Origin: Bifiguratus adelaidae
Lineage: Eukaryota; Mucoromycota; Endogonomycetes; Endogonales
NCBI GenBank assembly: GCA_002261195.1
Contig: MVBO01000001.1
Location: forward strand, 192,264 to 256,263
Reading direction: 5' to 3'
Length of the DNA: 64,000 bases
Of the stretch, positions 17,375 to 62,011 are shown one piece after another. Position numbers and translations under genes: made by a program. The notes below the pieces were generated by a model that searched no databases, was not told the origin of the DNA, and was given only the letters and a program-made list of their open reading frames with translations. The first letter of the stretch is position 1. Each line of letters begins with the position of its first letter.

Positions 17375-19179
17375 TTAATAATACAAGGGATGCTCCTTGG
17401 GTTTAATTTTGCCATTGACAGGTGGAGCAGGCAAGCATTTGAGAGTAGGCATATTTTCATGAAGTTTGTCACCAAGAGGGAGACTGAGCAAGGCGGGGAG
17501 TTGCAAAAGAGTCTTTCCAGCCCACTTCCAAAGGCTGTTTCGCCAAGTGACCAAGTTGCCGAATTGACGGGCTTGATCGACGCAGAATTTGGCTCGCTCA
17601 TGTCGGTGTTTGACAAAGGTCTGGAAGGCTTCTTCATAGTCCTTGGTCGTCATTAACTTCTTTTTGGACATGGCGTGCACCAACACGTTGGTCAACACCC
17701 TATATAGGAGGACAATCAGTTATACTGTGAAAGAGTCCGGCCACAACGTACACGGCATCTTCAATAGCTTGATTGGCTCCTTGACCTGAGGTAGATGATC
17801 AGTAGTATGGCGAGAAGCGCAGCTCTCTGCTAGACATACCAACGAAAGGCGACATCTAGCAAAGCAAATCAATCGCGATGCACATAATGAGTTGGGTCTC
17901 AGTTGTCCTACATGACAGGTCTTACCTTGTGGGCAGCTAATGAAGATCATCAGTATTCATCCCTGCAATGGCTTACTTTCACTCACCATCACCAATCAAC
18001 ACTGTGCGACAATATGTCCAACAATCTATGGATGTCATTAGCATCCCTAAGGATACGGACGAGAACCATCCACGAACCAAAGCACCTCTCCTCCAGGTTG
18101 ACCTTTGACCAACACTTCGGCACCTTCCGCAAGTTGGCCAAAAGTAATGTTGTTGTGAGGCGTCAAATGGTCTCGGTACTTTGTAGACATTTCATTGGCG
18201 TCCGCAGCCGACCATTGTAATTTGAGCGCGTTCTTGGGGTCATCGATACGGGCACAGAAGATAAAATCGACCCTCGGCGGAGCACCTGGCTCTAATATCA
18301 CTCAACTCAGATGATGCCTATGGATGAGACGAGCACTTACCCTCGCTCTCGCAAACAATGCTGTTCATCATACAACCCTTGCCGGTAATCCAGTTAAAGT
18401 GATTGTTGACCTCGAGACCTTCAATTGGCTTAGAATATCCAAAGATGCCATGGTACTGGCATTGAAGACCTTCCTTATCGCCATCGCTCAACAATTTGGG
18501 ATCCTCAATCTCTACGTTGCGGAACATTGAACGGCGGACATGAGACCAGGCACCATCGGCTCCGACAATGAAATCGCCAGAAAACTTGCTACCGTCGTCA
18601 AAAACGGCGGTGACCTTGTCTTCACCGTCAACAATGTTGGTCACCTTCTTGCCACTGTCTGAGAGTGAGTTTGCTGTTTACACAAGACTGTCAAGCACTT
18701 ACCAATGGATAAAATCGTCATTGATCTGTTCCCACAAGGCAATCAACAGATCTTTCCGATACACCGAAAGCTGAGGGTATCCATATCGATTCTCATAACT
18801 ATGTGCCACAGAAGCCGATACGGTGTTCCAAAGCTTTACAGTATCGCCCCTTTGCTCCCAAAAGTCATTGGCTACCGCCTTTGTACCTTTGGCCAATATT
18901 TTGTCCCAGAGTCCTATCCCGAGGTCAAATTTGTGTCAAGACGACGTTAGACTTACCTAATTGTTGGAGAACCCGGCTACCGTTGGGTACCAGAAAGACG
19001 TTGGATCCGTGAGCTTGATTCGCCCTCTCTGCGCGTTCCAGAACCACGAAATCGATGCCGACTTTCAAGAAACAGTTGGCGAGCATAAGTCCGGCTATAC
19101 CGCCTCCAACAATAACCGCTTTGGGCCGTCTGGCTTCAGCCGAGTGGCCATTTTCGACATGACCGTTGCCGCCTTCCAT
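17375..19179 (-). CDS. FAD-dependent monooxygenase (tandem copy 2, upstream)
   Basis: Start ATG at 19179 (MEGGNGHVENGHSAEARRPK). FAD-binding GGGIAGLMLANCF lies near 19,065-19,105, the DG motif FIVGADGAWSHVRRSMF near 18,530-18,590, and GDAAHKMSPFVGQGANQ with AIEDAV is spread over several tiny exons near 17,745-17,985, including a GTAAGA...TTTGCTAG intron in the middle. The end is IKPKEHPLYY with TAA at 17375. Exon order and small-exon structure match copy 1 closely, so the two genes arose by tandem duplication. All three flavin motifs are intact, making this the better candidate for an active class A hydroxylase. It lies 200 bp upstream of copy 1 and 130 bp downstream of a Gfo/Idh/MocA gene on the same strand. 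Confidence 0.85.
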
Positions 19180-19201
19180 GACTGCAACAGGCTAAAGTAG
19201 G

Positions 19202-19243
19202 CGGAAGAAAAAAAAAGATAGGAGAAGGGAAGGGAAGGAAGGT
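19202..19243 (-). promoter_or_regulatory. CT-rich promoter tract upstream of FAD monooxygenase 2
   Basis: A 42-bp almost pure purine run on the plus strand (A9 plus repeated GGGAA/GGAAG), hence a pyrimidine tract on the coding strand, ends about 25 bp before the ATG at 19179. CT-rich tracts just upstream of starts are common in fungal promoters without a TATA box. Confidence 0.45.
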
Positions 19244-19308
19244 TGCGCACGGCGTTCCTCAAGAAATGTATACCGGTTACACAACATCAGCGTCTATGTA
19301 CCAACACG

Positions 19309-20623
19309 TTACAGTCGTGACACTTTTACTTCTTTGCCAGTCTTTGCACTTTCAAGAGCGGCTACGAAATAGGCGAGATGATGGTAGGCCTCTTCGGTCG
19401 TGATCCCTAATTGACCACCCTGGCGCAGCACAGAATAAAAATTGCTCAAGACACCCTCAACGTCCTGTGGAGTATCTTCGTTCACGTTCACAACTTGAGA
19501 TTGACCTTCCGCATTCGTTAATGTGAACTGGTTCTTGCTGGTTTGATGCATGCTGGAGAACTTGTCGGAAATCTCAATGGAACCTTTGGTGCCATAGATG
19601 GCAAAAGTGGCGTGTCCTGGTGGAGTTGCACACTAGCTGAGGTTAATGTCCGTGCGTCAGCCACATTTACAGTCACTCACGTAGGTGAATGTGATGGTGC
19701 CCAAGGCGCCGTTGGCCATCTTGACGGCAGACATCAAGTTGTCTTCTGCACCATGAATTGCATACTTTTGATTTGCCATGGCCGTGACACTCTCGATGGG
19801 TCCAAGGATCTTAACAATGGTGGTCAGGTTGTGGACGCCGCCGTCGGAGAGGTAACCTCCGGGATGTTCCGGCTTTTGCCTCCATGCGGTAGCATAATAA
19901 GGCGACTTGGGGTTATAGGGTCTGACGGCGGAATAGTTGAACGTGATCACCTTGGATGATCATAAGTCATTAGTCCGGCATAATATGCCATCGACTAACC
20001 TCGCCAATCTCGCCGCTCTTAATGAGTTGGGCCACCTTTGCGGTAACGTTGTTGAAAGCAAAGTTTTCCGCGATCATAATTTGGGTTTTGGCCTTGCGAG
20101 AAAGCTCGACGATTTGACGAGCATCCTCCAGAGTATGAGCTATATCGGTGTCATGGGCTGAGTCATTCCTTGTCTGGAAGCAGGAGACTTGCGCACATAC
20201 CTATGGGTTTCTCAATCACGAGATGCTTTCCATGATTAACCGCAGCCTTGGCCATCTGTCCCTCAGATTAATAAGCAGCACAAATGACACGAGCAGCTAT
20301 CGGCTTACCTCTAGATTGTACTGGACGGGGACCAAGACGTCGAGAGCATCAATTTCAGGGTTCTTTAGGATGACACTCGGGTCGATATACACAGCGTCTT
20401 GGGGGATATTGGCCTGCGTAAACGCATTTCAGCCTACTCAACTCGTGGCAACATGACAAACGGACCGAACACTTACGGCCGTTGCAAACTTTTCCGCCTT
20501 CTCCCGCGAACGGTTACTACAAGCTACCAAGTTGTACTTGCCGGGGAGCTCATTGTAAGCCTCCAGGTGACGGTGGGCGAAAATACCAGTACCGATGATG
20601 GCAATGTTCACAGGTTGAGACAT
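19309..20623 (-). CDS. Gfo/Idh/MocA-family NAD(P)-dependent oxidoreductase
   Basis: Start ATG at 20623 (MSQPVNIAIIGTGIFAHRHL), a Rossmann GxGxxx(A/H) motif. Following exons give VACSNRSREKAEKF, then DALDVLVPVQYNLEMAKAAV and the family hallmark HLVIEKPI near 20,195-20,230, whose Lys is the catalytic/cofactor lysine. Next come IAENFAFNNVTAKVAQLIKS and the long central exon ending at 19,657. The C-terminus (GTKGSIEISD..., ending KEVKVSRL) fits the dehydrogenase-like beta-sheet domain. Five short introns are visible. Members oxidise or reduce sugars, inositols or dihydrodiols. Substrate cannot be assigned. Position between flavoprotein genes on the same strand suggests a small catabolic or secondary-metabolism group, which is inference. 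Confidence 0.85.
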
Positions 20624-44162: not shown

Positions 44163-44554
44163 TGAGCGCGCTCCTAAGCGTCAAACTTCCACATGTTTCT
44201 AGGCACGCGACCGCGCCAACTCAACGAATTGCCAATTTGGGTGCTGCGCAACAAATTGTGATTGTTCTGGCACGTGCAGATCACCTGATTTTTTAATGGT
44301 TCTCCTTTTGACTTGTTTATTTAGTTTCTAACATACTGTATTTTTTGAATTGATTTGCGCCAAGGGGATAGGACATTTTGCGAAAACGGAGGTACAAAAA
44401 AAATTGGAGAAAAAATCAGCCCATGGCGTAATGCAGACAGAACATAAGAAAATAGAGTCAAATTAATGTCTGTAATATGAGCATAACAGCACGCTGCCAA
44501 GTCTTACCGTGTTACCGTATCTAGATGTGGGCAGGCGATAACCTGACCGGAAAA
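44163..44554. other. Gap between FAN1 start and Fanzor A 3' end; candidate element end / omegaRNA region
   Basis: About 390 bp, AT-rich from 44,290. It must hold the FAN1 promoter near 44,163-44,290. The Fanzor A downstream flank is here; in TnpB/Fanzor systems the omegaRNA derives from the 3' end and flank of the gene. At 44,356-44,374 the sequence has GCGCCAAGGGGATAGGACA, which resembles, in inverse orientation, GCGCTAAATTTTAGGACA just upstream of Fanzor A (about 46,717-46,734). These could be imperfect terminal inverted repeats. Confidence is low because only the GCGCyAA and TAGGACA blocks match. Confidence 0.3.
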
Positions 44555-46685
44555 TCATGTGCGAGTAACAGGAAATGTCCTTCTTCGACTGAATCTGACA
44601 GGCACAACACCAGTGTCGCGGAGGCTTCGAACAATATGCAACATGTTCAGGCAAGCTGCAAGATCCCGATTCCATAGACGATGGCTGGCTCCTTGACTTT
44701 CCATGGCTTCTCTACAAGTTAGATTGGTACATCTAAAACAATGTAAGATAAGTAAATTAGCAGCAAGCTTTTGCTCTTTGATAGCCGACTTACCTGAGAA
44801 GGCCATGACAAGTCACGATGGGCATTTGCTGTCGTCGATATGGACGAGGATTTGGGATTCGCTTGTACGTTTCCACTGCTATCGTGTTGGCAAGTTGGGC
44901 AACATCGGGAAGTTTTGAATACGTCGAAATCGTGCTTCTTTAGCATCTTTCTCATTCCTACACCTCGTATTGGTTCATGGTATCGCGTATGGGGGGCAGA
45001 CCAGTTCCCCATTATGAGCACAGCATTCTCAAATTTTTCTCGCAAAGCCCTGACTATTTTCTGGTCGGCTTGTACTCGGTTGATATACGATGACATGCGA
45101 AGTTTTCTAAACAGAAAGTTGCTATTGACATGACTAGTTCGGCTTTCTGCGTAGAAGGCTGTGAGAACGGCTGCTTGTTGTCCGCGCGTTTGCAAAAAGT
45201 TGTTGAAGTTATCGATATGTATGGTTTGGCTGAGCACTCGGGAGAGGATGGTCTCAGCCTCCTGTATAGCAGGGTTGGCGTCCTTGACCGCTTGCCTTAT
45301 GCCGGCGTACTTGTTCGTTTTTCTCATTTTCTCCTCGCAATTTCTGGTAAAGCGGAACTTTCGAGGCGTTTGCGCAGTCGAGGTCTCGTGCACGCAATAG
45401 ATGAGATCTCTCCTCCCTGGATCTACAGTGACACAACGGCCTAATATCTGTTGATGCTGCCGATGTCCAAGAGTCGTAACATACGGGACATCTGGTTCTA
45501 TGACCGGTGCGCGTGTGGCGCGCTCTGCTTCGTTGCTGTCCCTCGTATTCTTGATGATGGAAACGCCAACACCATCCGTTTGGATGGTGCCACGGAATTG
45601 AAGTTGACCATTTACACCTTGGCTTCTAAAGGCTTTGGCATTCAGGTTAACGACAGACCTCCAAACGAACAACTTTTCTGTGCCGTTCATCCAGCGGCTG
45701 CCCAAAATGTTTTGCGAAAGAATTTTCGAATCAATCTGCACATAACAAGGAGACCACGACTTTCGGATGGGAAAGCAACAGAATAGGCGCATTTCTCGAA
45801 GCTCAAGAGTCGAGCAAGCTGGTGGAAGGCCCTGAAATGGTCAACGGGAGATGCTTTAACGTCATAGTAAATATTATCTCTTCGAAATTGGTATCCAGTA
45901 TTATACGCCTCTAAGACTGGTTGGAGTGTGTTGTAGGCCTCAACAAATATTGGAAGACTTCTAAGCAGCTCTGGCAAGACAACGCGGCGGTGTGAAATTG
46001 CTTCTTTAAACTGCGTGGCTGGAAGGATAATTGCCTGACGCACAATATCTTTGGCCTCTTCAGCAGATAGACCACCATCAATGAGTTCACGATTCATCTG
46101 TTGCTTCCTGTTGTTAATGTCGAGCAATACATTGATCACCCGTTGTAAGTGTTGACCAAATCTCATTTTGATGTTGGTGTACGCGACATACATTTTTTTG
46201 CCTTCGATGAGAGCACTTTGCTGAGCGAATTGAAGTGGAATTTTGACGTATCCTGTTATTTGCAGATATCCTTGTAAATGCCGTCGTATAAGCCCGCGAA
46301 AACGTGCTGTTCGCTCGCGTACACGGCCTTCCTGATATTGCACAAGAGATAGCCAGATCTCAGAAATGAAGTCTTTGTTGATCCAAGGCGCCATATCGAA
46401 CTCTGGGTGTTCATCCAGCTCAGCCATGAAAATATATTTCGCAAATGAAAAGGCGTGAAAAGTTGTCGTATGGACGGTGGTAACAAATTCTTGGAGTACC
46501 GGTATGAGGTCATTACGCCAACCAATGCCAGTGATGGAGCCCTTTACTACCATTATGCGGTCCCTTGCCTCAACTGCATCTCCATCTGCATCGGCATCTC
46601 CCGGTGGTCCTGCATCTGGGTCACCTGAATATGGTTTTCTTTTTCCCAATGTGCTTGCTTGGGCTCGGGATGCGGCTTCCATCAT
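44555..46685 (-). pseudogene. Fanzor-like RNA-guided nuclease, locus A (decayed)
   Basis: An N-terminal frame from ATG 46685 (MMEAASRAQASTLGKRKPYS) carries a bipartite basic/acidic leader, then an unbroken 330-codon stretch rich in helices (WINKDFISEIWLSLVQYQEG). The nuclease half has RuvC-I CVTVDPGRRDLIY near 45,395-45,440, GNWSAPHTRYHEPIRGVGMR near 44,945-45,015, a zinc ribbon (CCPTCQH; HGLLRCTNLTCRE) and RuvC-III LWNRDLAACLNM near 44,637-44,677, ending at TGA 44555-44557. One GTAAGT...TTTTAG intron (about 44,744-44,806) fits. Breaks: a frameshift near 45,792 (AAA run), a second near 44,850-44,870, and a short deletion before FKTSRCCP (about 44,915) that removes the Asp-Glu normally preceding (Y/F)KTS, the relocated RuvC-II glutamate of Fanzors. 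Inactive as it stands, unless the frame errors are sequencing artefacts. Confidence 0.85.
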
Positions 46686-46689
46686 GATG

Positions 46690-46741
46690 AAAAGCGCCAG
46701 TCTTATATCATAGGCGTGTCCTAAAATTTAGCGCTTTTATA
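46690..46741 (-). promoter_or_regulatory. Fanzor A promoter: TATA box and 8-bp inverted repeat
   Basis: On the minus strand TATAAAA (46735-46741) lies about 50 bp upstream of the Fanzor A ATG. An exact 8-bp inverted repeat AAAAGCGC (46690-46697) / GCGCTTTT (46731-46738) with a 33-nt spacer spans the leader. It may be part of an element end. Confidence 0.4.
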
Positions 46742-46820
46742 ATGCACCTTATCGAATCAAGTGCAATCCAGCAGAATGCTCCAAAAAAACCCCCTATCCA
46801 CTGGATTACAGCTGAGTGTC

Positions 46821-48082
46821 TCAGTTAGAGTCCATGCTGGAAGCGATGATTTTTATACGAATAGACCTTGTGCCCTGGATCATATTATTATTGTTGTTCC
46901 AGTTGTGTTCTTGTTGGATACATGTGTTTCTCATAAGAGAAAATATCCCTTCCACTCTAAACTTTGTATTTCTAATTTCTGTTCTGCTTTCCGTGCTTCC
47001 GTTTATTTCTTTGCTTCCTACCAATGTTCCTCGGACTGGAAAATGGCGGCATCCCAAATGCAGGTCGATGTTGACATTACAATTTCCAAATGGCAAGACG
47101 CCTGAACTTGACTTATTCAGCTTGCCTTCACCAATTAATGACACTATCGCCATGCGCTTTACGTCGTCATTCCTGAGATGTAGAATCGCCTCATTTGGGC
47201 AAACTGAGACCTCATAACTGCGAGGCACTTTATAATGGCTGTCAGGTAAGATGCGGTATGATTATTTTTGTCGAAACGAGTGTAGGCGTTTCTTGTGCGC
47301 TGTCTACTCACGTATGAGGTTCCTTGACGCGAAGCTTCCGTTGAGTTGTTTGTTGATGTAGGTATTAGCATCGCGCGGTGTTGTGCGTCGGATTTATTCC
47401 CTATATTGACTCTATGCCATATCAGTTCCCCAGTTCTATGTGCTGTGCGAACAAGACAGTGGATCTCAAGACAGCAGTGCTTGGGTTTTCTGACCTTTTT
47501 GAAGCTGTGTCATACTTTCCCAAGGTGACATCCGTTTGAGATGATGAGCAAGATCAGAAATATTCCATCTTGCGGACCGATCTTTCATAGGGAGAGGTTT
47601 TTGCTTCTTGAGACCATTTGCGACTGCCTGCACTTTCGGAAACTGTCCAAAAGATTGCCCATTGACTTTCGGTGTGTTCATTGAGATTGCGGATCTTAAG
47701 TTTAATATGGACCTAGTGGTAAGATGACTGTTACTAGCAACATAGGGCTAGGCATTGCAGACGTTGTTGACAAGTTGTTTCCTGGGGGGTATATTGCGTT
47801 TTGTATGCACCACTGCTAGTAGCTTTCTCGGTTGACTTTCGCCTGATCCTGTTCTTCTCGCTTTTCACACTTGCTGTTGGTACCTACAGAAGTATTCAGG
47901 TGTTAATATACTATACAGTTGATTTGACCTTTTGGCTAAGTGTGCTGTCAGTACCTCGAACAAACAGTTTGAGCAATAATAGGAAACGACTTCGTCTTGA
48001 ACGCAGGAAGGGCATCGTATTTGATGATAATCTTCACAGAAGTATAACCGCGACAACGGATATAGTGAAAAACCGGTTTCGG
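46821..48082 (-). pseudogene. Dynactin subunit 4 (p62) relic
   Basis: On the minus strand near 48,080-47,955 the translation GFSLYPLSRLYFCEDYHQIR followed by CPSCVQDEVVSYYCSNCLFE matches the Cys-rich N-terminus of dynactin p62 (DCTN4). A GTACTG...CTGTAG intron (about 47,953-47,881) then restores VPTASVKSEKNR in phase. After that the expected RNCFxCPxC zinc ligands are missing (reads IRRKSTEK) and the frame closes. Upstream, no initiator exon is intact, and a Cys in CEDCHQ is Tyr. Further downstream open pieces (47,681-47,466; 47,371-47,159; 47,228-46,821) have the spacing expected for decayed exons but weak similarity, so only the first 250 bp are firm. This gene normally encodes the pointed-end dynactin subunit that links cargo to dynein. 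Confidence 0.6.
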
Positions 48083-48139
48083 AGGCGGCTGGGATATCGA
48101 AAGGTAGCAAACATTCCGAGTCAGATGAATAGGGGCTAA

Positions 48140-48545
48140 AGCAGACGTCAAGTTATTGACTTCGCTGCCCTTATTTGAGCCTTGATAGACATCATCAGGG
48201 CATCCACAGTGATAAAATACAAAAGAATTTATTGTTCCGCACCAGCGCAGCAGTTGAGCTTCTATACAATGTCCAAGTGAAGCAATGCTGCTAGTATCAT
48301 ATCAAGTTGTTGCCCCAATCGATGGAGGCATGATATCCCGACATGAGGAAAACACAATGTAGATCTGCATCAAGTGATGAATCCGATTTCCAATTTAAAA
48401 ATCTCAACTTTGACATAAACGGCAGGAACCTTTTATTGATTTCTATCATATGCCTAAATTATATCTTCAATCTTAACTCAAACTCGGCACAACAAACGTG
48501 CTGCAAGTATATAAAGCATACATTCGTTAAGAAAGAATAAACAGC
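48140..48545. other. Intergenic, downstream of sulfatase
   Basis: About 400 bp of AT-rich sequence between the p62 relic and the sulfatase stop codon. An open frame at 48,343-48,540 has no recognisable content. No RNA gene seen. Confidence 0.4.
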
Positions 48546-51500
48546 TTAACTGTTGCCATCACCGTAGAATCCATATCGAGGCCAATCGATGTCGAGATCC
48601 AATAGTTCTTGTGGAACGGCAACTGCTAGCTTTTCAACGTCTCCGACAGACTTTACAGCGCCGGGGATGTCTGTGGGTCTTGGCAGAACATCGTATGCGC
48701 GCTTTACTTCCACGGGGACCCGCATGTTCCACTTCTGCGTCTCTGCAAGATGGAGGAGTTCATCGAGTTCATGTTGCGACAGCGGGTGACTTTGGTAAGT
48801 TCCGTCCGGGGAAAATGGCGTGAAGCCTGGGAAATGAGGACTTTCATTGTCCCACGACTGCACCGTCAGACAGTGCTTGTAAGCCGTCTTCGTTTATAGA
48901 AAAGAGAATTGATATTAATATGTCTGTTTCGTCATTCTGAGGGTCCTGACACAGCCCTCATTTCGAGAGTTGATTTCAATTTACCTTCGGCAACGAAGCA
49001 TAGTACTTGTCATATTTCGAATCCAAAGCCTCCTTGAGGTTGGTGACTTCTCCATTGGGATGAAGCGCGGTCCATGGTTCACGACAGTAATCTTGTTGAC
49101 AGTCCTTTGCGACCAGGAGAAGCGCGTCGAGACGATCAATCAACGACTTGCTGGAATTTTTGTAAAGATTTTTGATCTGGTATGGATCAGTCTGATGGTT
49201 GACAACGGACAAGGAAAAATCAATTAGTTATGTGTCGACGTGTGCAGCATCCAAAATGCCAGAGACAAGGCACAACCGATACCTACTTTCAATTCATACA
49301 GTTCATGTTCGTTGGTACACCAAGTTGAGTAGAAGTAGTTATAGTCTTCAGCAAGAACTCTAAGAGCTCTGTAGGAGTTGTTCTTGTAGGTAACGATGTC
49401 CAAACCAGCACCTTGCTACACACAGGTACGACATTAGAACCACACTGTCCAAGTATCTACCACTTAGTGGGTACACAACATACCATGTTTAAGTTATCCC
49501 AAAATTCCAGCTCCACCACTTCGCTAGGAGGCTTTTCTTGGTTTCTAGCCGACTCGTGGATTGGAATGACTGAGCCATCTACAAAGTCAGGAATGGATCC
49601 ACCAGCAATATCAAGAAACGTGGGCGCCAGATCAAGATGGGAACTGACAACTTGACTCGAGATTCCCACGGGGACGTTCGGACCACGAACAATGAATGGC
49701 ACATTGGTATCCTCTGTTATTAACAAAAGCACCATCCGTTAGTTTTCTATTCGATACCAAGCAAAGTTCATCAAAATTATCTCCTCAAACCTTACCCTCG
49801 TATGGCAATTCTTTGCCGCCGTAAACGCGATATTGTCCCAGATGGTATCCATTGTCCGAAGTGTAAAAGATGTATGTGTTATCAAGTACGCCAGATTCTT
49901 CGAGCTGACCGACAACATCGTCAATCAATTCGTCCAGAGCCTGTAGCGTTCTGATACGTTGTCGATAGAAAAAGTCCAAGAAATCTTCTTCGGTTTTGTT
50001 CAACAATGGAAGCGTCTTTAAATAGCTTGGTTTGTCTGATTGATCCACCGGATTCTAAACACCAACGATTTACACACAACGTCAGTAAATGCGGTAATTG
50101 ACAAAAATTCGGCCAGTAAATCAACAAGTAGAGTTACACATACGTAGTTTGGACCTCTGGGTGCCTTCAGATTCGGGAATAAGTTTGCATGACGCTTAGC
50201 AGGCAATGGAGGCGTAGTGTTTCTCGATGACGTGGCATTCGTGTTGTTGTAGTAATATATGTTCTGATGAGGGGCAACACTAGCAACTACAAATTTACGA
50301 TGTAAGGTGAATATGTTGTAATTAGAGTATGTACCAAGCACCAGCTTCAACTCACTTTGGAGATAAAACGGCTCTGCATTCCCAGCTTGCTCTTTGATAA
50401 CAGCCTTGGCCTTAGCAGCGATAAGGTCAACCTGATACTGGTCTGGATAGTATACAGGCGGTTGATCTATAAACGTAGATTTAATGCAGAGGAGTCATTA
50501 GAATATAACTCTGGGAGACTGTGCTATTTATATGCATCCATGAGATTGGTTATACGTACTGTTGTTAGTGAAAACTGGCAAATAGTAGTCATAACAATAT
50601 GGGTCCACCAAAAATTGAGAACTGTTCCATCCTTGCGGGCTATACGATTGTCAGCCCAATCAGATCTTCTGATAACTCGGCATCTTGCACAAATGTAAAT
50701 TTATGCTTACCTCGGACTGTTATAATTGTTGATAGCATATCCATTCATTAATTTGCCAATGTAATGAGTACTGTATCCAGCCTGTATTCGAACATAAAGT
50801 CATCAACAATTGAACGCACGCGGGAATTACACTGAGGTTGATGATGCACACCTGTTGCAGCCACACCGGCAAGTAGTCTTTTTGATATCCAAGCGCTGCA
50901 AACTTTGTGTAGGAACCACCCGGAAGAGCATTACCAGTCACCTGTATATGAATGATTCGATCGTAAGTCAGTTGCTCAATGTTCAATGCACCATATTAAA
51001 CCACTCAAATATACTGTTGCCTACATTTGTGTTGTGGGGGTACTGCGATCGTAAGATGCTGACTCGACTAGAAGAGGAAGAAAAGGTTATTGATTCATAC
51101 TGTCTTCGTTTTCTTACAAGATCCTTCCGCGTACCTTGGGCAGCAAACCGAAATGGTCGTATAGTGATTAAAATATTGTGTGCCCTAAGATCAGTGTGGT
51201 TCACGTTTAATTATTATTCGCTCTCACAACCACAGTCACCGCATATCAAAATACATGCACCACACCTTTTGGATCAAATTTTTATGCAAAAGTGGCATGA
51301 AGGCCAAAGAGTTTAAATGTAGATCCTAATAACCGAAAGTAGCAAAAGTCAGTTAGTGGTTTCCACTTCTTAAATCCACAAAACAATCTCATTAACCTGG
51401 TCGTCAGACAAGATAAACACAATATTAGGTCTCTTGTCTTTACCCCCGTGCGCCACATTATTGGGACTACTGGCGCCTGCTTGTACAAGCAAAGCCATGA

Positions 51501-51555
51501 AGGCTACGAAAATAATTGCTCTTGCGGCTACAGAATACCTTTTCTTGCTGATCAT
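48546..51555 (-). CDS. Secreted arylsulfatase / N-acetylglucosamine-6-sulfatase-like
   Basis: Start ATG 51555 (MISKKRYSVAARAIIFVAFM), a signal peptide ending near QAGASS, then KRPNIVFILSDDQ, the N-terminal metal site of sulfatases. The formylglycine motif is built across an intron: ISVCCP (near 51,125-51,145) plus SRVSILRSQYPHNTNV (near 51,015-51,062) gives C-C-P-S-R, so the Cys to be converted to formylglycine is present. Then YTSDNGYHLGQYRVYGGKEL near 49,810-49,880, DTNVPFIVRGPNVPVGISSQ and SSHLDLAPTFLDIAGG near 49,620-49,710. The C-terminus ends DWPRYGFYGDGNS with TAA at 48546. More than a dozen exons with introns of 50-90 nt. It hydrolyses sulfate esters outside the cell; exact substrate unknown. 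It is the only apparently intact cellular gene inside the repeat island. Confidence 0.85.
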
Positions 51556-52850
51556 CCGAATTCTATCTGCGGGTATACCGACAAAAGTAAGAATCTCGTA
51601 CCCTTTTATAGAAGAAGTGAATCTATTTGAGCTACATGTTTTGAGTTTCCGGTAACGCAGGATTTGCCGTACACTTCAGTCAATTTTTAGATGACAGAGA
51701 AAACTAAGTTTGACAATATCGCGGATAAACTCGCATTTGCTTTTAATTCGCCAGACAGGTCGTTCCTCATCGATTTCGGAAATGACGCGATCTTAAAGAA
51801 CTTCATTCGCACCAAACCTTTTGGAAAGAAATGTCTTGGTAGATCACGAGCTACGCGATACCCGGGAAAAGGTTGATCGACGCCAGCTATTCAACAAATT
51901 ACAGTCAGCTACGCCGAAATTCTCGCATGACCTCAGGCAATGTCATGGTGATATGTGTACGCCTTGGAAGGCTACGTAAAAAGCCCTAAACCAGAGCCCT
52001 TCCAGAAAACTGGTCATCTGGTAGCTTTCCAAAATAGGAGTGGCTAGCTTTACTAAATACGAGTGGCGTGCATAAATTTAACCGAATTTGGAAAGGTCTT
52101 AGAATTGTTAATGTGACACGTGTCCGGCAATAGCTTTGAAAAATTAGCACGATTCAATCTACTTGTCTTGCAAATAGAAGAGATGATGATCAATGTGTTG
52201 TGATCCACAGTCTCTACGTCGCTTACCGTCATTGTGAATTATTATCATATAATCTCATATATGAGGCTGAGAAAATGCATTAGCGTCAGTTGGGTCACTA
52301 TCTCCTTTCAACCCACCGCTTTGTTACATAACATCATCTGTCAAATCACTAAATCTTGACCTTAAATGGCAAATCACGCAATTATTGAGCTGTTTGACAC
52401 ATTCGCGCCCGTAAATTAACACCAACGCGCGAGACTTACGTACTTGATGTCGCCATAACAGGCTGTGCTGAGAGTTCACACTATTCGTGAGCAATGGACA
52501 ATTAAGAGCGTTTTGCCGACAGGGGGGCTGCTTGGGACACGTTCCAATGTGTAGCAACCATCCAACGGTGAAGTCGTTCGCGTGACGTGCTTTCCAATAC
52601 CAATATTACTGTACTAAGCCTAGGTGACAGTGTATTTTCTATATGCGTTCATATCGCTATACGATAGCTATATAATCTTGGCGAAAACATCAAGAAGCTG
52701 TTTCACTTTTCGTGGCCAAGTAAAATCAGATTTGAACTTAACAGACGATCGAGGCAATGACATTTTCGTTTACGCCAAAGGTAGTAGTACACGTCAATAT
52801 CCCTCACACTAGTAGCCAAATTTTGACCACATAGATAAGCATGTGTTGAT
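51556..52850. other. 1.3-kb AT-rich gene-free stretch
   Basis: I find no coding region, tRNA or rRNA here. It includes the sulfatase promoter side. A 12-bp palindrome CTCATATATGAG lies at 52254-52265, and partial repeats of the word AGTGGC occur at about 52,040-52,075. Short open frames on both strands have no family resemblance. It may be eroded transposon DNA. Confidence 0.5.
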
Positions 52851-54296
52851 TTATACAAGCTTCTTATCGAAAAGCATATATTTGATCCATTTAAACGAGG
52901 AAAAGATGCAGAAAAAAATAATGCAAGTGAGATAACGAGGTTCCTTCTTCCCTTCTCTAATTATCGGACTACTGGTGTTTAATTTGTTGATTATTCCGAC
53001 ATACACAAGTTTTAAATAAGTGGCAGATGGCAAGTACCCTCCATATCCATATCCATATCTGTCTGCAAAATCTGAAAACGATTCAACCGTTACTGGTACT
53101 GCATGATCCATAACCGACGGCTGAGATTTCCTTTGCTGCAGTGCGTACAAGTGTTGTAGTTCTAGTCTGTCATGTCTAAGCATATGCAATTCTCTTAGCA
53201 ACTTGGATAGTCTATTTGGTCCAACCGAATTCTGTGCAAGAGGACGCATCAGATCTGCTAGAGTCTTGGAGATGCCACTTCTGTGTGTAAGAATGGCTGG
53301 AAATTCTAATTTGAGGTGGCCAGGCAATTGCCGAAGCAAGCTAGGGTCATAGCCATTCAGTGTCTTCGGACAAGATCCGGACGAGCAGCGATACCGATAA
53401 GACATCAAATAGAAGCAGCTGGAAAGATTGGACGCAGTGTTTGAGTTGAAGCCCTGATTTGTTGCTGTAAGATGCATTCCTAGTTACATACCCATACAAA
53501 TCTATGACTCTATGTGCGTAAGGCTCTTTGTTCCATCCTTTACAGCGAAGTTTCGCCTTGCAAACAGGACACTTAAGCTTTCTACTGGAACCAGGAAGTG
53601 CGGGATCCAAAGGAAGACTCTTGGTGAATACAAATTGGACGGGGATAGGCTTTTGCGCAGAGCAAAGTATGGCTGTGGTGGATCGATCCAAAATGTGCCA
53701 TTACGGTATGCCTGAGGAGGACTTTCCTTACTGATACGCTCTTGTACCTTTCGCAGATACTCACAGATAGCGCTGTTAGTTCCTTGACTTGGGTTATTCT
53801 CCATCATACTCTCAACGTTTGCAATGTTGACATGTTCTTCTTCTATCTCTTCATCGATTTCGATAACATTTTGAGTATCATTTCAAAATGATCAGTATCT
53901 CCACTGTCAAGTAGTCATAGCCAACATGTTGTAAATCTCACCAGCTTCCTCATCAGCTGCCCCAAATAAGCTGCCTTCTTTTTCTTCACCTTCTTCTTCA
54001 TCATCATCATCTTCTTCTTCTTCCTCGTCCATATCCTCGGGTCTATCCTCCATGTACGCTTGTTCGATGTTCTGGAGCTGCTCCATGGTTTCGCTGTCTA
54101 ACTCAAAGTCATCAAACTCGGCGTGTTCTTCAGAAACAGGGTTTGACGAAAGGCGGTGGCTGGAGGAAGTGGAAGCTTGTCCCCGGCGATTGAAATTTAA
54201 TTGAGTCTGATTCTTGTCTATTACTGGGCGTTGCTTAGGACGACCGGCTTTATGATTATGACGGTTCTTTTGGCCTATGGGTCTACCAGTTCTCAT
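52851..54296 (-). mobile_element. AT-hook plus DUF6729-like transposon gene, damaged
   Basis: Start ATG 54296: MRTGRPIGQKNRHNHKAGRP has two GRP AT-hook cores, then a Glu/Asp run from a trinucleotide repeat. Further on, NGTFWIDPPQPYFALRK, KLKCPVCKAKLRCKGWNKEP, VIDLYGCFYLMSYRYRCSSG (joined over an intron, 53,408-53,495), NGYDPSLLRQLPGHLKLEFP and FPAILTHRSGISKTLADLMR. This zinc-binding region resembles the DUF6729-type domain that recurs in multicopy genes of mucoromycete and basidiomycete genomes; the name is from memory. A frameshift near 53,660 splits FALRK from PIPVQFVFTK, and the C-terminus fades out after YLPSATYLKL (about 53,030), so it is truncated. It lies downstream of Fanzor B on the same strand, 568 bp away. 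Confidence 0.6.
53991..54030. repeat. (CTT/CAT)n microsatellite
   Basis: A 40-bp trinucleotide run of CTT, CAT and CCT units. On the minus strand it encodes a Glu/Asp stretch (EEEEEDDDDEEE) in the AT-hook/DUF6729-like gene. Confidence 0.85.
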
Positions 54297-54299
54297 TTT

Positions 54300-54863
54300 C
54301 TATAAAATGTAAGGAATTCTGACCGAGGAACAGGTTTATTTTATAGAAATCTGACTAGTTCTCGATCACTGGGCGGACTATTATAGCACTATGTGAACAA
54401 AACCATTCCTAGCATTTCCTCTCGGTGGCTAGCTTGCTCCATGGCATTGAAGAATAATTGATCCAATATTGTTTCGGGCAACGATACCGAGCTCCACATT
54501 AGGATGAGAGGTATCTCATTGGTTTAAGAGTGTTTCACAGATCGATACCTCCCTCCAGATTAGGATATGGCTTCCATATATGTAACTGCGTTCGAGGAGT
54601 TTCAATAAATTTTGAAAGCTGGTTGGTTGGGTGTTGGTCCAGACATAAGAGCCGTGCCATTTCCTCCTCCTAGTTTGATCACGTGAACCTAGATTTCCTC
54701 AATTGTCAATTACATTACCCAATGAGAATTTGATGATTTTATTTAATGATTCTCTCCCCCCCAAGTTTGATCATGTAACGTACATTTGGAAAATAAGCAA
54801 CCGTTATCACGTGATGTTCCATATGTGATGAACATGAACCAGCACTTACTATAACGACGAGGT
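54300..54863 (-). other. Fanzor B 3' flank with spaced direct repeats (candidate omegaRNA / element end)
   Basis: No coding content. Two pairs of imperfect direct repeats: CGATACC..CTCCA.ATTAGGAT at 54,482-54,506 and 54,543-54,566, and AGTTTGATCA(C/T)GT at 54,671-54,683 and 54,770-54,782, the second pair about 100 bp apart. Two TATCACGTGA-like palindromic sites (about 54,675 and 54,807) accompany the second pair. In TnpB/Fanzor loci the guide-bearing RNA starts inside the nuclease 3' end and runs into the flank, so a conserved structured RNA is expected here; I cannot fold it by eye. Confidence 0.35.
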
Positions 54864-57800
54864 CTAACCAGGTGGCAAATTTGCCCCTCTTTCCTCGACA
54901 GACAATCTTTTAAAGGGCTCGGGCCTTTGATTATTATGGAGAGCCATATATCTGAAGATATATGCCATATTCCTGGCTGCCATCTCATCCCGATTCCATA
55001 CCGTGTCACAGTTGTGGCATCTGAGCACAGCATGTATCCTTTCATTGGAATGACCGCCAGAAGTATTTTTTTGCTTCACATTATCGACCGACTTTGTGTG
55101 ACAGCGGGGACAAACTTTGGATGTGTTATATTCGTCGATCATGCACAGGGAAACCCTGCAATGTGGCATCCTGCAAATATCACGTAGTTTTTGAAGGAAG
55201 GTTTTAGACGGCCCTGGCCGCTTTCCTGGCAAGTTACCCCATGAAGCGCTCCCATACGCAATCACGTAATGTCTGTTTTTACCGTCAGAAGCACGGTAAC
55301 AAGCGGGTGAAGGTGTCCATTTTGGCCTGGTTGGCGTGATCGGGTTCGTCATATGTGAATGACAGGGAAGAGGAACCTGGCCGTACTTGGAACTTCCATG
55401 CGTCAATCGTCGTGATATTTCTGCAAGAGCTTTCTGCTTGCCTTTGTACGACTTAAGCTTCAGGACGTTGAACCTTCGACCTTGATCGTAATATCCAACA
55501 ATGACGGAAAAATGGGTCATACGATACTGAATGGCACTGGTAAGGCTCCTCACGTCGGAAGTCTTCAAGGACGGGATGTCATCGATTATCTTTGTTGTTG
55601 TCGAATCGGCAGAGTGTCTCCACATCTCTCTTCTTTTAGTAGCAATGTTGTGTCCGGCTAGATCATAGTACTCTTTAGTACTGGTTCGTCAAATTCGTAT
55701 CGGTGATACGTCGTCATAGTGATCCACAGCTACGAACAAATCTGTGGCTCCTGGGTCGACGCCCCATACTCTTGTATACTCCATGTTGTTCATAAGCAAG
55801 TCTTTGAAGTTGGATGGCTGCACTTGGATGGCAGTTCGATTCTTTTTTTTGAAGCAGAAGCCCACATCCACCCCATCGCTGGTAATCATATTCCTTTACA
55901 ATGAAATAGTCAGGAACATGTTGAATTAAAACTGGATATGCTTCTGATTCACGCTTACCAAAAAATTGCGACGGCTTTGCTCCAAGTTCTCCCGCTGTTC
56001 AACGCCAATCTTTGTAAAATCGAAATTCCGCCAGAAAATGTCTCGCAATGCCTCTTCATCTATTCTATGGCCTCTAAAAAGGCCAGCTTTTCTTAGCACC
56101 GGAAAAAACGTTCGACTGTCAAACTGTATATGACGTTGTTGGAAGCTATAAACGGGCACAATGGTGAATCGGCGGGCGCCTTTCGGATCCGTGAACTTCA
56201 TAGGTTGGAATGAATTGCTTTTTATAGCGGTTGTTACTTGCTGTATGAATTCGTGGAAGGCCATGTAATGGCCGACTGTCAGATATGTACAACTTAGAAC
56301 TTTCTTTCCATATAATGGAAGTAAGTCATTGTTGATGGCTTGCTGAACTGCGACAAGCAAGCTCTCGCAGACCTTTTTGGGCAGAGGTATTGCTTTGGTC
56401 ATCTGTGCGTGAGAAGATTTAGCATGATTATTCAGTCTTCCTAGGACAAAGCTACACGCGCTCACTTACGCTTTTAAGTTGTCTATAGACATATCCTCTG
56501 GAAGCATAGGTTTGCGGTTGTGGCTCTTGTGCAAACACCTTTTGCTCTATTCTTTGCAGGGTTTTATAAAACCAAGGCAAATACAAGTGTGCATGTGCAG
56601 ACAAATTGTTTGCGTTAACAGGACGAGGACCTAGCTCTATTGATCCTGGAAAGCCGTCAATGGTAGACTGTGCAACTGTAGACTCCATATCGCTGGGCCA
56701 TTTGAATTCATTGAGAGCGGCTTTTTCATAGCAGTAGTTTGCCAGTTTTTTGCGAGATTTGACAGTCAGGTTTGCGAGATACCACGAATCGCTGCTGTCG
56801 GAAAATCTGCAGAAGAAATACTGTTCGGATTTCTTTTGGAAATTGTGCACAATATGATTGATAGAGGTGGTAGCGTATTGGCTGGCATGTACTGAAATGA
56901 GCTCCGCATGTATGCGCATGTTGTCTTTGATGTGCTGCGGTATCATTGGTGCAAATGATCTGTATGCCGCCTTTACCCATTCAGGCGCTGTTGCTCCTAG
57001 TCCAACAAGCTGGCTGAAGACTTGATAACAGAATGTTTGATTTATTGGCGGCAATGGGAGATTGTCTGCCAATCTGCTTGCTGTTAGGTACAGCATAAAC
57101 AGTGAAGCGACGTAAGTGAAGTTTCTTGACTTCAAGACAGTATCTTGCATAGTGCGTTTGAGAATATCATTCAAACAGCAATTGTCCAGGCCAGTCTTGA
57201 TTATTGAAACTCTGTTAAGCGGACAGGTCACCCTTTTTCTTGGTAGATATTGAGGACAGTTTTTATTGCTACGTCGTGCATGGTCCCACGCACCACAACC
57301 CGGGCAAGGTTCGGCTTCTGGATCATGTAATCGTATCTCTGCTCTCCTAGCCTTTTCAGCTTCGGCTTTTGCAGCTCGCTTCTCCCTTGCTACTTCCCTT
57401 GCTATTTCCCGTTTGTTAGGTCTGCTGCTTGATGAGGAAGTGGACGGTTCTATATAGAGAATACACAATTATCAATTGGCTTAGTAGCTCGTAAGGATGC
57501 TATCCCTATTGCTCATACCGGAAGTTGCAGCTACACTGGATTCTGGGACTTCTGACTCGGAATCTTGTTCAATTTCTTCAACATTCTCAGTATCGTCTGA
57601 GAACAAATACCTGTTACATCTTACTCGTAAAAGATTTATACACCTCAAAAGTTGTACCTGTGTTATACCAAGGATCTTTTTGTCTATAGTTAGCTGATTT
57701 GTGTGTTTGGAGAACAATTAGTCTACAAATATGAATAGCATGTGCTTACAAATATCATCATACAATTCCTGTGGAAATTGGCGGCGACGATTTGCATCTT

Positions 57801-58268
57801 GATGGTATGCATATTAAAGTCAAAATTGTGCGGTAAAATGTATTCATGTTAATAGACATACCATCGGAAACAGGCCAAGGAAGTTGCCGCCTCTGTTTAC
57901 GAGATTCTCTAAGCATATCAAACAGCGTAAGTTTTTGATGTACAGATGCTAAAAAAATGTCACCAATATGTACCTCGATTGAGTCTCGGTTTGAGGTTGA
58001 CGGTGCACCCTCTGGAACGGACGGGTTGTTGTCTGGTATTCGGAGGAAGGTGTTGCTAATGCAAGGATAACAAATCGGTGAGTTAAGACTGTGCGATCAT
58101 ATGTGTGAATATAAACATGGCTATATTGTGGGTGACTATCGGCTTACGTGAATCAGATATGTTGTCAAAGAAATCGTCATCGGCTATGCAGTGTAGGTCT
58201 GTCACTAGAGGTTTTATTTTCTTGGAAGACGACCCTTCTCCTGGGGAGGAGGATCGTTTCCTACTCAT
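54864..58268 (-). pseudogene. Fanzor-like RNA-guided nuclease, locus B (nearly complete, one nonsense and one frameshift)
   Basis: Exon 1 starts ATG 58268 (MSRKRSSSPGEGSSSKKIKP, basic/NLS-like). Small exons follow with NTFLRIPDNNPSVPEGAPST, ESRKQRRQLPWPVSD, ANRRRQFPQELYDDI, LTIDKKILGITQ and an acidic exon. The large exon 56,480-57,450 has a charged helix (REIAREVAREKRAAKAEAEK) and a zinc knuckle (EPCPGCGAWDHARRS). Nuclease: RuvC-I YTRVWGVDPGATDLF near 55,745-55,790; RuvC-II MIDEYNTSKVCPRC near 55,095-55,140 with Glu present; second Cys pair LRCHNC; RuvC-III VWNRDEMAARNM near 54,965-55,000; stop TAG 54864. Two breaks: TGA at 55689-55691 (IRI-stop-RTSTKEYYDL), and the 55,960 splice that only keeps frame if a run of six T is one base shorter. 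Both RuvC metal sites are otherwise intact, so decay is recent. Confidence 0.85.
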
Positions 58269-58426
58269 CAAACTTGAACAGTTGTTTCGAGTAGGGTATC
58301 AACTGCAAAAAAGAGAGAAAGGAGATAGTGTAGTAGATTTTTTTTCACGACAATTTATCAGCGTCAGTGTACGCCTCTGGATTTTCGATTTTTTGTCCGT
58401 TGTTTAGACATGAGATGGCACAAAAC

Positions 58427-58476
58427 AAATCCATTGTGATGTACACAGTATAAATCTCAAGACTATGAATGGATTT
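58427..58476. repeat. 9-bp inverted repeat upstream of Fanzor B
   Basis: AAATCCATT (58427-58435) and AATGGATTT (58468-58476) form an exact inverted repeat with a 32-nt spacer, about 160 bp upstream of the Fanzor B start. Possibly promoter or element-end structure; chance is not excluded. Confidence 0.35.
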
Positions 58477-58479
58477 CTT

Positions 58480-59600
58480 CATAATCATAGGAAGCCTTTA
58501 TTTCTACCACTATTGTTACAGTAAATCAAGTCGCTCCATCCACCTTTCCCACAGCTGTCTGAAATGCGACTGAAAAAAGGCTTGTGGGATCCGATATCAA
58601 GGGGTAAGGGGCTGAAACTCTTTAGTAAGACCTCTTGGTATGCTGCTAACATAGATGACAGGTGGTTAGCTCATCAGTCATGTATGCGTTCTTTTGCTTG
58701 AAGAGAGGTGCCCCGTGTATACATGTGCCTCTTTTTCTAGTTGTCGATCCTTTATGACGAGCATTGGGCGCAGGTTTTGGCCATATTCTGAAAACACAAG
58801 ACCGGACCCCTTGCCCTTATCTCAATGGCCCTTCTGATCGGCATAGCGAGGCACAATGGCGTTTCGTCAAGCATGCGACCCTTTTTGCTCTTGGTAAAAG
58901 AATCGCACTTTTTCCTGATTATGCTGTTGCAAAGGGGAACGAGCTCTGTTAATGCCAGCAGTACAAACTCTCTAAGAAAGCTTGTGTCTACGAGGATTAC
59001 GTATAGCCAGCCAGTAGAGGCTCGGAAGTGTTGTTGGTTGACTAGTTTGCACATGTTGTCTTGGACTTCCTTATAGGAACTGTATAGCATGTATTGATTT
59101 CCATTGACTCATACCAAAGGTCTGTAATAGAGTGGTCATTTGGAAAAGCAACCTTCCGGACGGGAATATTGCCTTGATCTCAACTCAGATCACACTTGAC
59201 AATATGATTGGTCAATGTTATTTGCCTATTCGGTTGCTTACTTCATGAACTTTACAGTAAGCCTTTTGAGTGCCACAGTGGGCCATAGCGGACCGGTAAT
59301 TTACTGTTTATTGACAAATAGTTATTTATGATTTTGCGTCAAAAGTTAATTTTACGGACGGCCAGGCCAGGAAGATTATACCAGGAAGATATTATACATT
59401 ATACTATACCAAGAGGAAGATATTATACGTTAGTATGGGATTTGCTTTGCGTTTGATTAAAATGAAAATTACTTCTTTCCTATATCCAAGAACATGGAAG
59501 TAGCAGATTATTCAACGTGAGTCAGTGCCTATCAGCTTGTTTTCGAACAGCTATAAATGAACTTACGAGTATCCTTTTCCGAAGAAAACGCATGGGGCTT
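58480..59600. other. 1.1-kb gap with eroded sequence and short tandem repeats
   Basis: No recognisable gene. A minus-strand open frame of 112 codons (58,752-59,090) has no family resemblance. At 59,367-59,428 the words CCAGGAAGA (twice) and AGGAAGATATTATAC (at 59,383-59,397 and 59,414-59,428) make a degenerate tandem array with about 31-bp spacing in AT-rich sequence. It reads like a transposon end. Confidence 0.5.
59367..59428. repeat. Degenerate tandem repeat, GGAAGATATTATAC units
   Basis: Two near-identical 15-bp units spaced 31 bp plus two 9-bp partial units at the left. Seen directly in the sequence. Confidence 0.7.
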
Positions 59601-60213
59601 TCACAGCACCCTGTGGTAGATTGGCAAGTTCCATGCCGGTCTAGCTCCAGTTTGGGCATAATGTTGGACGATGCGGCGCATATTGAACGCAGCCATCACA
59701 TCTTTATGCCATACAGCTTTGTCATCTTGTCGGCTATGACATTTGTTGGCGAGATATACCTTCCAAGGAACAGCTTCATTCTGGAGAGAGCCATTGTCGT
59801 ATTCTTCGCAGCAATGGGTACACATTCTGTGACGAATAACTGAAAGGTTCTCTTTCACCTGAACGTCCGGACAGTCTCTAAATGGATGTAGGTACTTGAA
59901 GCCTCCCTCGCCCCTTTTGAAAATAGTGGTCAATGTATGTAAAATTAATATCCATGACATTTAATAAGTCTTACCGAAAGCAGCACCATTTAGACCTCTT
60001 ATGCCAGTGTTTACCAGGCGGCCGGCCTTCGTACTGGTTACGCATGATATGCTCACAGATGATGCCTCGCCGTACCTCGTACTGCTGAGTTCGTGTATCA
60101 CAGGGACAGGTGATGCTAGTACGAAACTCTGATACCTTGATGACATCAGGCTGTGCGTCGCTATATCTACTATAGTCTACAAGGTCACAAGAAGATGGAT
60201 GCGTCGGATACAT
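59601..60213 (-). pseudogene. 5'-truncated divergent Fanzor-like C-terminal fragment, locus C
   Basis: On the minus strand the frame reads DVIKVSEFRTSITCPCDTRT near 60,095-60,150: Glu followed by (F/Y)RTSxxC as in Fanzor RuvC-II/zinc-ribbon starts. A GTAAGA...CAAAAG intron (about 59,909-59,977) then leads to LHPFRDCPDVQVKENLSVIR, HRMCTHCCEEYDNGS and KAVWHKDVMAAFNMRRIVQH near 59,640-59,680, the RuvC-III x(K/R)DxxAxxN box, ending at 59601. No RuvC-I or N-terminal half exists upstream, because the DDE transposase begins at 60,195 on the other strand. The distance from the RuvC-II Glu to the RuvC-III Asp is about 120 residues, against about 50 in locus B, with extra Cys pairs. It is therefore a separate subfamily, and the Fanzor label here is less certain. 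Confidence 0.5.
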
Positions 60214-61744
60214 CCGCCAAAGACCTTTGGATCACTCCGTCTTCCCACTACAGGGCCTACGCCATTCGTCAATGGGAAAATGAATATCTGGAGCTTGGAT
60301 ATGTTTCACTGCAGCGTCAACGCAATCGTGAGAAGCGAACGTCAACATTAGCCGATGAAGATCTCGCAGAAAAGGTGTGCAGTTGGATTCGGAACGTAGA
60401 AACTTGATCAAAATCTTATATATCAATGAAGAAGCGATACCGGAAATGCTTGGTGTCCCGGGTGCCATGTCTCAGACGACGTTGTGGAGATATATGCTGG
60501 ATTGGGGATACAAGCACCGAAAAGCCTCCAAAGATATATATTTTGACGGCCATGAGAGACCCGATGTAGTTGAGTATCGGGAAAAATGGGCTATTCGGAT
60601 GATCGAATACTCCAAGAGAATGGAAACTTATTCAGGAGACGAAAAAGAAGAGGTTATTGAACCTTTCCTTTTTGCCCGGTCAAAGGAAGATCGTCATGGC
60701 GACGCACGACGAGTCAACCTTTTACGCAAACGATGGGAAGCAAACGATTTGGCTCGGTGAAGGAGAAAGCATCCTGAGAAACAAAACTCCTGGGCAATCG
60801 ATAATGGTCAGTGAATTCCAGTGCGCTTGCCACGGTACAATGCGAGTCGGAACGAGGACTTCCCGAGTCTACTTTTACGCCGGTGCTGCACGCGAGGGAT
60901 ACTGGACACATCAGGATATGCTCAACCAGCTAACAGAGGACGCCATACCTATTTTCGAAGATCTGCATCCTGATTGTGTTGCCGTCTTTATCTTCGATCG
61001 GAGCAGCAATCACAATGCATATGCTAGCGATGCCCTTTTCGTCCAGCGTATGTCAAAGAGAAAAAAGATGTGAGCCAGACGATAAGTACGTGTTTAGAAC
61101 ATGACACTTCTACCACAGAGAAGAATCTGGAGGGTATCGTATCCCTCAAAGCATGTACAAGGAGAAGCAGGAAATTGTCCTGAAGAGAAAGGGGGAGTGA
61201 CGATACTGACGGCTGAGAAGCAGTCAGTCCGTTACTTCAAGGGCATAGAAGGAATACTTTCTGAACGATGCCTCTGGTTGGAAGAAGACCCCTATCGCCC
61301 GGGAAAAGTCTGGAGGGTGGACTGCAAGGGGGACGCCATCGATGACCGCCTGTGTTGTGCTAAACATTTGTTGGCGGCACAGCCAGACTTCCTGGAGCAA
61401 CGCACAGCCATCCACGAAGCAGTTGAAAAGGCCGGTCATATCTTCGATCTATATCCCAAGTTCCATTGCGAATGCAATTTGATAGAAAGATACTGGGGAG
61501 CAGCGAAAAGAATCGCCAGAGTCAACTGCGACTACAGCTTCCAGGCTTGAAGGCGAGTCTGCCAACTTTTTTGGACGAAATCTCCCCAGCTGATTCCACA
61601 CCGACGATGGTAAGAAGATGTTATGATAGATTATGGCGTTACATTGCAGCCTATGCTGAAAAGCTGCCCGCCGATGAAGCTGTTGTCGAGAAATTCTCAG
61701 CTCGACACTATAGAAGTCATCGTAGAAATGGAGTGCATGACTGA
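60195..61744 (+). mobile_element. Mariner-like DDE transposase, multiply frameshifted
   Basis: From ATG 60195 (MDASDTSAKDLWITPSSHYR) pieces in three frames make one transposase: WENEYLELGYVSLQRQRNRE; SQTTLWRYMLDWGYKHRKAS; IYFDGHERPDVVEYREKW; VMATHDESTFYANDGKQTIW (first catalytic Asp near 60,700); VAVFIFDRSSNHNAYASDAL (second Asp near 60,990); LYPKFHCECNLIERYWGAAK (Glu near 61,480); and a tail CYDRLWRYIAAYAEKLPADE. The Asp / Asp / NxIExxWGxAK layout is that of the IS630-Tc1-mariner DDE_3 type. Frameshifts lie near 60,385, 60,665, after 61,070 and near 61,545, with stops in between, so it cannot make a full transposase. Its 5' end abuts and overlaps the truncated Fanzor C on the opposite strand. 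I could not find convincing terminal inverted repeats. Confidence 0.75.
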
Positions 61745-62011
61745 GTATAGTTTTATCTTGTCTTTTTTTCCTCGAATTTTTTTGTTTCCCTAACTTTTCG
61801 TTCAATAGAGACGGCAATCAATGATCCACTAGGATATATGCCAACAGTCTCTTCAAAAACCATCTTTCTTTAACCTGAGTATCCTTTAATCGGAGTTTCA
61901 GCATCCAAAAAGGGAACCGGCGTTTTAAATCATAAAATTGAAACAAAAAAAGGTTCATGTCCATTACAGATCCTGAGATGATACTTTTTATTACAATTCT
62001 GAGATGTTTCC
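61745..62011. other. Intergenic, AT-rich
   Basis: About 270 bp between the transposase relic and the Hsp20 stop codon. Nothing recognisable. Confidence 0.5.

Follow-up and report, generated by a model that had tools for sequence, protein, structure and literature searches.

In characterised Fanzor1 proteins, as described in PMC10432273 and PMC11423790, the RuvC nuclease is accompanied by a zinc-ribbon NUC domain, and an omega-RNA determines where the DNA is cut. PMC3627910 names mariner, MuDR, Helitron, IS4 and Sola elements as carriers of Fanzor1 genes, reports fungal examples from Rhizopus, Phycomyces and Mucor, and gives D ... [TS][TS]XX C4 finger ... RD as the motif of the proteins. In this work we describe a 64,000-nt stretch of DNA (the window; contig MVBO01000001.1, positions 192,264 to 256,263) from the fungus Bifiguratus adelaidae (Mucoromycota, Mucoromycotina, Endogonales), in which three Fanzor-like loci and a broken transposase lie around a sulfatase gene. 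We consider it likely that they are relics of Fanzor1-bearing DNA transposons, at least two and probably three of them, which were acquired independently and would have inserted in the intergenic spaces flanking the sulfatase.

The described systems to which the loci were compared are PpFz1 of Parasitella parasitica (PDB 9cf0-9cf3), SpuFz1 of Spizellomyces punctatus (PDB 8gkh), the element SPu-1, the Fanzor1-bearing mariner elements (PGv-1 and others) and the IS630/Tc1-mariner-like transposases of Circinella, Phycomyces, Mucor and Rhizophagus. Endogonales are described as rich in transposable elements (PMC10386755). Our literature search found nothing on Fanzor in Endogonales and nothing on Fanzor pseudogenes in genomes like that of B. 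adelaidae, which is available as an 18.6 Mb draft assembly of 286 contigs.

Three Fanzor-like loci and a broken transposase

A preliminary description of the stretch had named three Fanzor-like loci, and exactly three places are matched by a TNB (zinc-ribbon) profile for which five Fanzor copies from elsewhere in the genome were used, with loci 1-3 left out. When this profile was run against the six-frame translation of the window, all 11 matches at E <= 1 fell inside loci 1, 2 and 3 (best E 1.1e-10, 7.4e-21 and 6e-7, respectively), and the reversed window, used as a control, gave a single match at E 0.46. All three loci are on the minus strand (Table 1). The plain Pfam scan for TNB put locus 2 alone above the cut-off and missed loci 1 and 3.

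Table 1 Features of the window (positions of the 64,000-nt stretch) and Fanzor loci elsewhere in the genome
Feature	Position	Strand	Basis
Locus 1, PpFz1-type Fanzor1 relic	44555-46685	-	PDB search, link test
Dynactin p62 N-terminal fragment	47937-48059	-	PF05502, positions 1-41 of 477
Host sulfatase with many introns, between loci 1 and 2	48546-51555	-	PF00884
Gene with AT-hook-like exon and DUF6729 domain	52851-54296	-	PF20499
Locus 2, Fanzor1 with introns and a CCHC-like knuckle	54864-58268	-	Pfam TNB, PDB profile, link test
Locus 2, knuckle	57306-57256	-	
Locus 2, RuvC-I (GVDPGATDLF)	55763-55734	-	
Locus 2, in-frame TGA	55691-55689	-	
Locus 2, TNB	55199-54966	-	
Locus 3, C-terminal Fanzor/TnpB-like zinc-ribbon fragment	59601-60147	-	Own-genome TNB profile, hhalign
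Broken DDE transposase, IS630/Tc1-mariner-like	60195-61744	+	Homologue search, link test
Fanzor loci outside the window, one per contig	C210, C28, C111, C203, C68, C278, C251, C202, C27, C229, C156, C162, C211		

The RuvC part of locus 1 matched PpFz1 at E 3.4e-49 and SpuFz1 at E 1.2e-15, and no other PDB chain at E <= 0.01. Locus 1 aligns with PpFz1 across the WED/RuvC/TNB part, and its kin in the same genome are the copies on contigs C210 (40 % identity) and C28 (37 %), the former matching PpFz1 at E 1.2e-102. In contrast to PpFz1, locus 1 has frame breaks, and both locus 1 and the C210 copy are without about 110 residues between the RuvC halves, where PpFz1 is described as having a cyclophilin-binding FRI insertion. 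Every piece of the Fanzor1 motif is present in locus 1, with the second half of the finger and the RD in other frames; the catalytic RuvC part and TNB are likewise in different frames. Compared with both C210 and PpFz1, locus 1 lacks 5 residues immediately ahead of the RuvC-III Asp.

The coding state of the genes was assessed with a link test, in which conserved anchors were joined into an open frame and each link could contain no more than one GT-AG intron, 40-250 nt in length (for the sulfatase, introns of up to 500 nt were allowed). Two of the 11 links of locus 1 could not be joined. The frame change near its end is a good GT-AG intron (44793-44733, 61 nt, GTAAGT...TTTTAG). By this test locus 1 cannot be spliced open and is judged dead. 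The C210 copy fails at one of its eight links, at an in-frame TAA; its third PDB match, a FYVE/RhoGEF protein (E 0.0069), was taken as chance. The Fanzor relic on C28 (L019) adjoins apparent Ty3/Gypsy frames, gag-, protease- and reverse transcriptase-like by eye, and DDE_3 matches were found on this contig too.

In locus 2 the TNB was recognised by Pfam (PF07282, E 4.6e-9, 36.7 bits against a cut-off of 26.3). The locus reads GVDPG and, after about 210 residues, NTSKVCPRC ... CHNC ... WNRD, with one in-frame TGA between, which fits the Fanzor1 motif. Alone, locus 2 had SpuFz1 as its sole PDB match (E 1.5e-4). The two-sequence profile made with the C251 copy, 27 % identical to it overall, gave 13 matches at E <= 1, in the order SpuFz1 (9.1e-18), GtFz1 (2.3e-8) and PpFz1 (9.2e-5), followed by a TnpB-like protein (3.2e-4) and further TnpB-like and Cas12 chains. 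SpuFz1 is thus the nearest solved chain, matched in both RuvC and TNB, and by these scores locus 2 is nearer to Fanzor1 than to TnpB/Fanzor2. It differs from SpuFz1 in its low identity, many introns and N-terminal CCHC-like knuckle (CPGCGAWDHARRSNKNC), and the 33-bp inverted repeats described for SPu-1 (PMC3627910) were not found at locus 2. At the RuvC and TNB parts of loci 1 and 2 it was also checked whether a non-Fanzor family scores better, and the Fanzor1 chains scored best.

Eight of the ten links of locus 2 passed, and the intron 56469-56403 is also present in the GenBank model BZG36_00041. The link across the TGA passes solely through a 57-nt intron. The link ahead of a TDG-like motif fails, and with a shortened anchor it passes via a 54-nt intron with the donor GTTTTA; the 5' exons could be joined with neither one nor two introns. 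On this reading locus 2 is probably broken, not certainly so.

Compared profile to profile, loci 1 and 2 share only 15 % identity over 350 columns (E 1.7e-10). As had been proposed before, they are too divergent to be copies of one element, and by similarity they belong to different subfamilies, locus 1 with C210 and C28 and locus 2 with C251.

Locus 3 is the least complete of the three. The hhalign comparison gave a probability of 93.8 % over 29 columns; against Pfam PF07282 it scored E 0.096, below the cut-off, and it has KD where RD is expected. No RuvC-I-like segment was found upstream, where the sequence runs into the transposase, and no sister copy was found in the genome except one weak match on C2 (E 0.025). 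Its start is separated by 47 bp from that of the transposase, and the two are divergently oriented.

For the transposase, 439 homologues at E <= 1e-3 were found among 5472 candidates, with a best identity of 55 %; the Circinella minor protein is 53 % identical over 99 % of the query and that of Phycomyces 48 %. Among the 120 homologues listed were proteins of Circinella, Phycomyces, Mucor, Absidia, Rhizopus and Rhizophagus, 8 of the 120 carrying DDE_3 (PF13358), and judged from such matches the family is common in Mucoromycota and Glomeromycotina. In contrast to the transposases known from Circinella, Phycomyces, Mucor and Rhizophagus, that of the window lies in broken pieces: three of its nine links were unjoinable, so that as far as splicing can be predicted it cannot be opened and is dead. 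It scored below the Pfam cut-off for DDE_3 (E 0.18), and no second copy of its DDE core was found in the genome, where DDE_3 transposases gave 22 matches elsewhere. Locus 3 and the divergent transposase may together represent a single element of the mariner type with a Fanzor. In mariner elements that bear Fanzor1 (PGv-1 and others, PMC3627910), a DDE transposase likewise neighbours a Fanzor; in contrast to these, locus 3 is a zinc-ribbon fragment, and a TA duplication or inverted repeats were not found (target-site duplications were not scanned systematically). A further DDE_3 transposase was matched to the right of the window, at C1:273611-274096, and mobile elements thus carry on rightwards of it. 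About 19 kb from the right end of the window, a DDE_3 transposase (L049:7288-8655, minus strand) consists of two adjoining open frames of 261 and 194 amino acids.

A knuckle-bearing Fanzor1 group

The Fanzor on C251 could be joined at 15 of 15 links after one anchor had been shifted. Two CCHC-like knuckle motifs lie ahead of it (L024:6954 and L024:6709, minus strand), the upstream one in another exon or outside the gene; they reached 21.5 bits with Pfam zf-CCHC_6, slightly below the cut-off of 22. Locus 2 and C251 thus share the knuckle, which was not seen in C202. A search of 5.8 billion proteins, in which 8000 shared-word candidates were scored each time and distant kin may escape, gave no relative outside B. 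adelaidae for locus 2, either alone or with C251. The sole protein match of locus 2 was BZG36_00041 of B. adelaidae itself (96 % identity over 40 % of the query). A viral origin was also considered and rejected: viral contigs gave 222 and 47 matches to the patterns, of which none was confirmed as a relative. Our literature search found nothing on a Fanzor with a zinc knuckle.

As the only protein matches came from the fungus itself and no viral kin was found, the knuckle-bearing subfamily may be undescribed. Tentatively, we suggest that locus 2, C251 and probably C202 could form a Fanzor1 subfamily that is rich in introns, has one or two CCHC-like zinc knuckles, a module that binds nucleic acid, at the N-terminus and has no relative found outside this fungus; its apparently open C251 copy might be an active or host-adopted RNA-guided nuclease.

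Two deposited proteins are affected by these genes. BZG36_00041 (P0001; 48546-56919, minus strand, 955 amino acids) is a chimera of three genes, made up of half of locus 2, the AT-hook exon from the DUF6729 gene and the greater part of the sulfatase. BZG36_01106 (P0002; L024, C251; 1396 amino acids) contains the C251 Fanzor without a TNB match, joined to a plasma-membrane H+-ATPase, and is probably a gene-model fusion.

Genes between and around the loci

The sulfatase matched PF00884 at E 2.2e-32 in the GenBank model and at E 6.5e-12 with its first exons, which include the CCPSR motif, split by an intron. All of its 19 links were joinable, and by this measure it is apparently an intact host gene. 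The DUF6729 domain was matched at E 8.5e-9 on one frame and E 2.6e-14 on joined frames; the gene passed six of six links and is the single match in the genome. The label AT-hook is a by-eye reading of GRP/RP motifs and marks a candidate. No mention of DUF6729 was found in our literature search.

The dynactin p62 fragment is a relic or partial duplicate. A longer dynactin p62 on contig C150 consists of four pieces covering positions 4-464, two of them with in-frame stops that may be introns. Over 97 bp the fragment (47850-48060) has about 80 % DNA identity to the C150 copy, and it contains an intron-like gap that is absent at that point from the C150 copy. The left neighbour of the 17.6-kb part that holds the loci is FAN1 (FAN1_TPR, E 7.8e-14) and the right neighbour HSP20. 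A bacterial-code scan found no tRNA in the window.

The DDE transposase, the AT-hook/DUF6729-like gene, the dynactin p62 fragment and the left neighbour FAN1 had all been recognised correctly in the preliminary description. Its statement that all the genes carry frameshifts was not confirmed: the sulfatase and DUF6729 genes can be joined open, and GT-AG introns account for several of the frame changes in loci 1 and 2. Nor was a sharp end of the gene-dense left part at FAN1 confirmed: the share of sequence in open reading frames of at least 150 codons, counted per 4 kb, was 0.25-0.55 at 44-64 kb and 0.23-0.88 in the left 44 kb. A second stretch with a low share (0.23) lies at 16001-20000, in the supposedly gene-dense left part.

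Origin of the stretch

The simplest account would be that several Fanzor-bearing elements landed beside the sulfatase gene and then decayed. By analogy with characterised Fanzor1, each Fanzor, when alive, would have been an omega-RNA-guided RuvC nuclease aiding the persistence of its own or another transposon. At present neither locus 1 nor the transposase is alive, locus 2 is probably dead as well, and of locus 3 a fragment is left. Genome-wide, at least 16 Fanzor loci are present by our count, three in the window and 13 on other contigs, and weak matches on C59 and C124 (E 0.006-0.007) and on C2 were left out. With about 16 loci, several Fanzor families in one genome are normal here. The presence of three of the 16 inside 15.6 kb has p 0.0012 if loci are placed uniformly; transposons are not uniform, and the window was picked post hoc.

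Several negative results weigh against this account. An ungapped scan of each locus and of the whole block found no terminal inverted repeats beyond chance expectation: 2 of 24 tests exceeded the maximum of 20 shuffles, locus 2 (length 25) with 19 against 18 and the whole block (length 25) with 20 against 18, the latter an A/T run. No common 5' or 3' flanks were found between Fanzor copies (25 comparisons; lowest 3/100 shuffles), and in 44-64 kb there were no Rfam matches and an omega-RNA was not found. Neither a target-site duplication nor an empty site was established (duplications were not scanned systematically), and for that reason we infer the insertion. As no ends or common flanks were found, the arrival of several elements is likewise suggested and not demonstrated. 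The word hotspot, used earlier for the stretch, was not sustained, there being one cluster alone, without ends, target-site duplications or an empty site.

Local duplication of one Fanzor was rejected on the low profile identity of loci 1 and 2 and the lack of common flanks. The stretch from about 52.8 to 61.8 kb could instead be one composite element holding locus 2, DUF6729, locus 3 and the transposase together, with locus 1 alone separate. No host gene was recognised within 52.85-61.74 kb, the DUF6729 domain and the transposase core each occur once in the genome, locus 2 has just distant kin, and locus 3 and the transposase start close together in opposite directions. However, no inverted repeats bracket the region, its parts have decayed to differing stages and no sister copy of the combination was found in the genome, and we regard a composite element as unlikely. 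Slightly less probable still is that locus 2, together with its C251 cousin, is a Fanzor gene kept by the host, with locus 2 still expressed through unusual introns. Lenient GT-AG rules would let the TGA and the frame break each be spliced around, and C251 is open at all its links after the one anchor shift; yet the introns needed in locus 2 begin at poor donor sites and would remove residues for which C251 has aligned counterparts, and the 5' exons of locus 2 stay apart. That the lesions are sequencing or assembly errors is conceivable in a draft assembly of so many contigs and seems to us very improbable, as the same link test opens the 3-kb sulfatase throughout and yet not locus 1 or the transposase, and other PpFz1-type copies carry stops too.

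We retain relics of separately acquired Fanzor1-bearing transposons as the likely reading. The earlier view of a graveyard stands in part: the Fanzor identity of loci 1 and 2, the Fanzor-like character of locus 3 and the transposase relics agree with it. A single graveyard of 17.6 kb does not, because the apparently intact sulfatase lies inside and the DUF6729 gene can be spliced, and the stretch is thus not one continuous island. It appears to be a genuine transposon graveyard, of a fairly ordinary kind, surrounding a host gene that looks normal.

Fanzor1 relics are expected in a genome of Mucoromycota, and no new mechanism is shown by the analysis of this stretch. The record of Fanzor1 now includes a compact Endogonales genome in which at least two diverged types of Fanzor1 lie next to one another, and two deposited proteins are revealed as chimeras of Fanzor and host genes, the second probably so. 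The most interesting part is the putative knuckle-bearing Fanzor1 subfamily with its apparently open C251 copy, which is a candidate for RNA-guided cutting.

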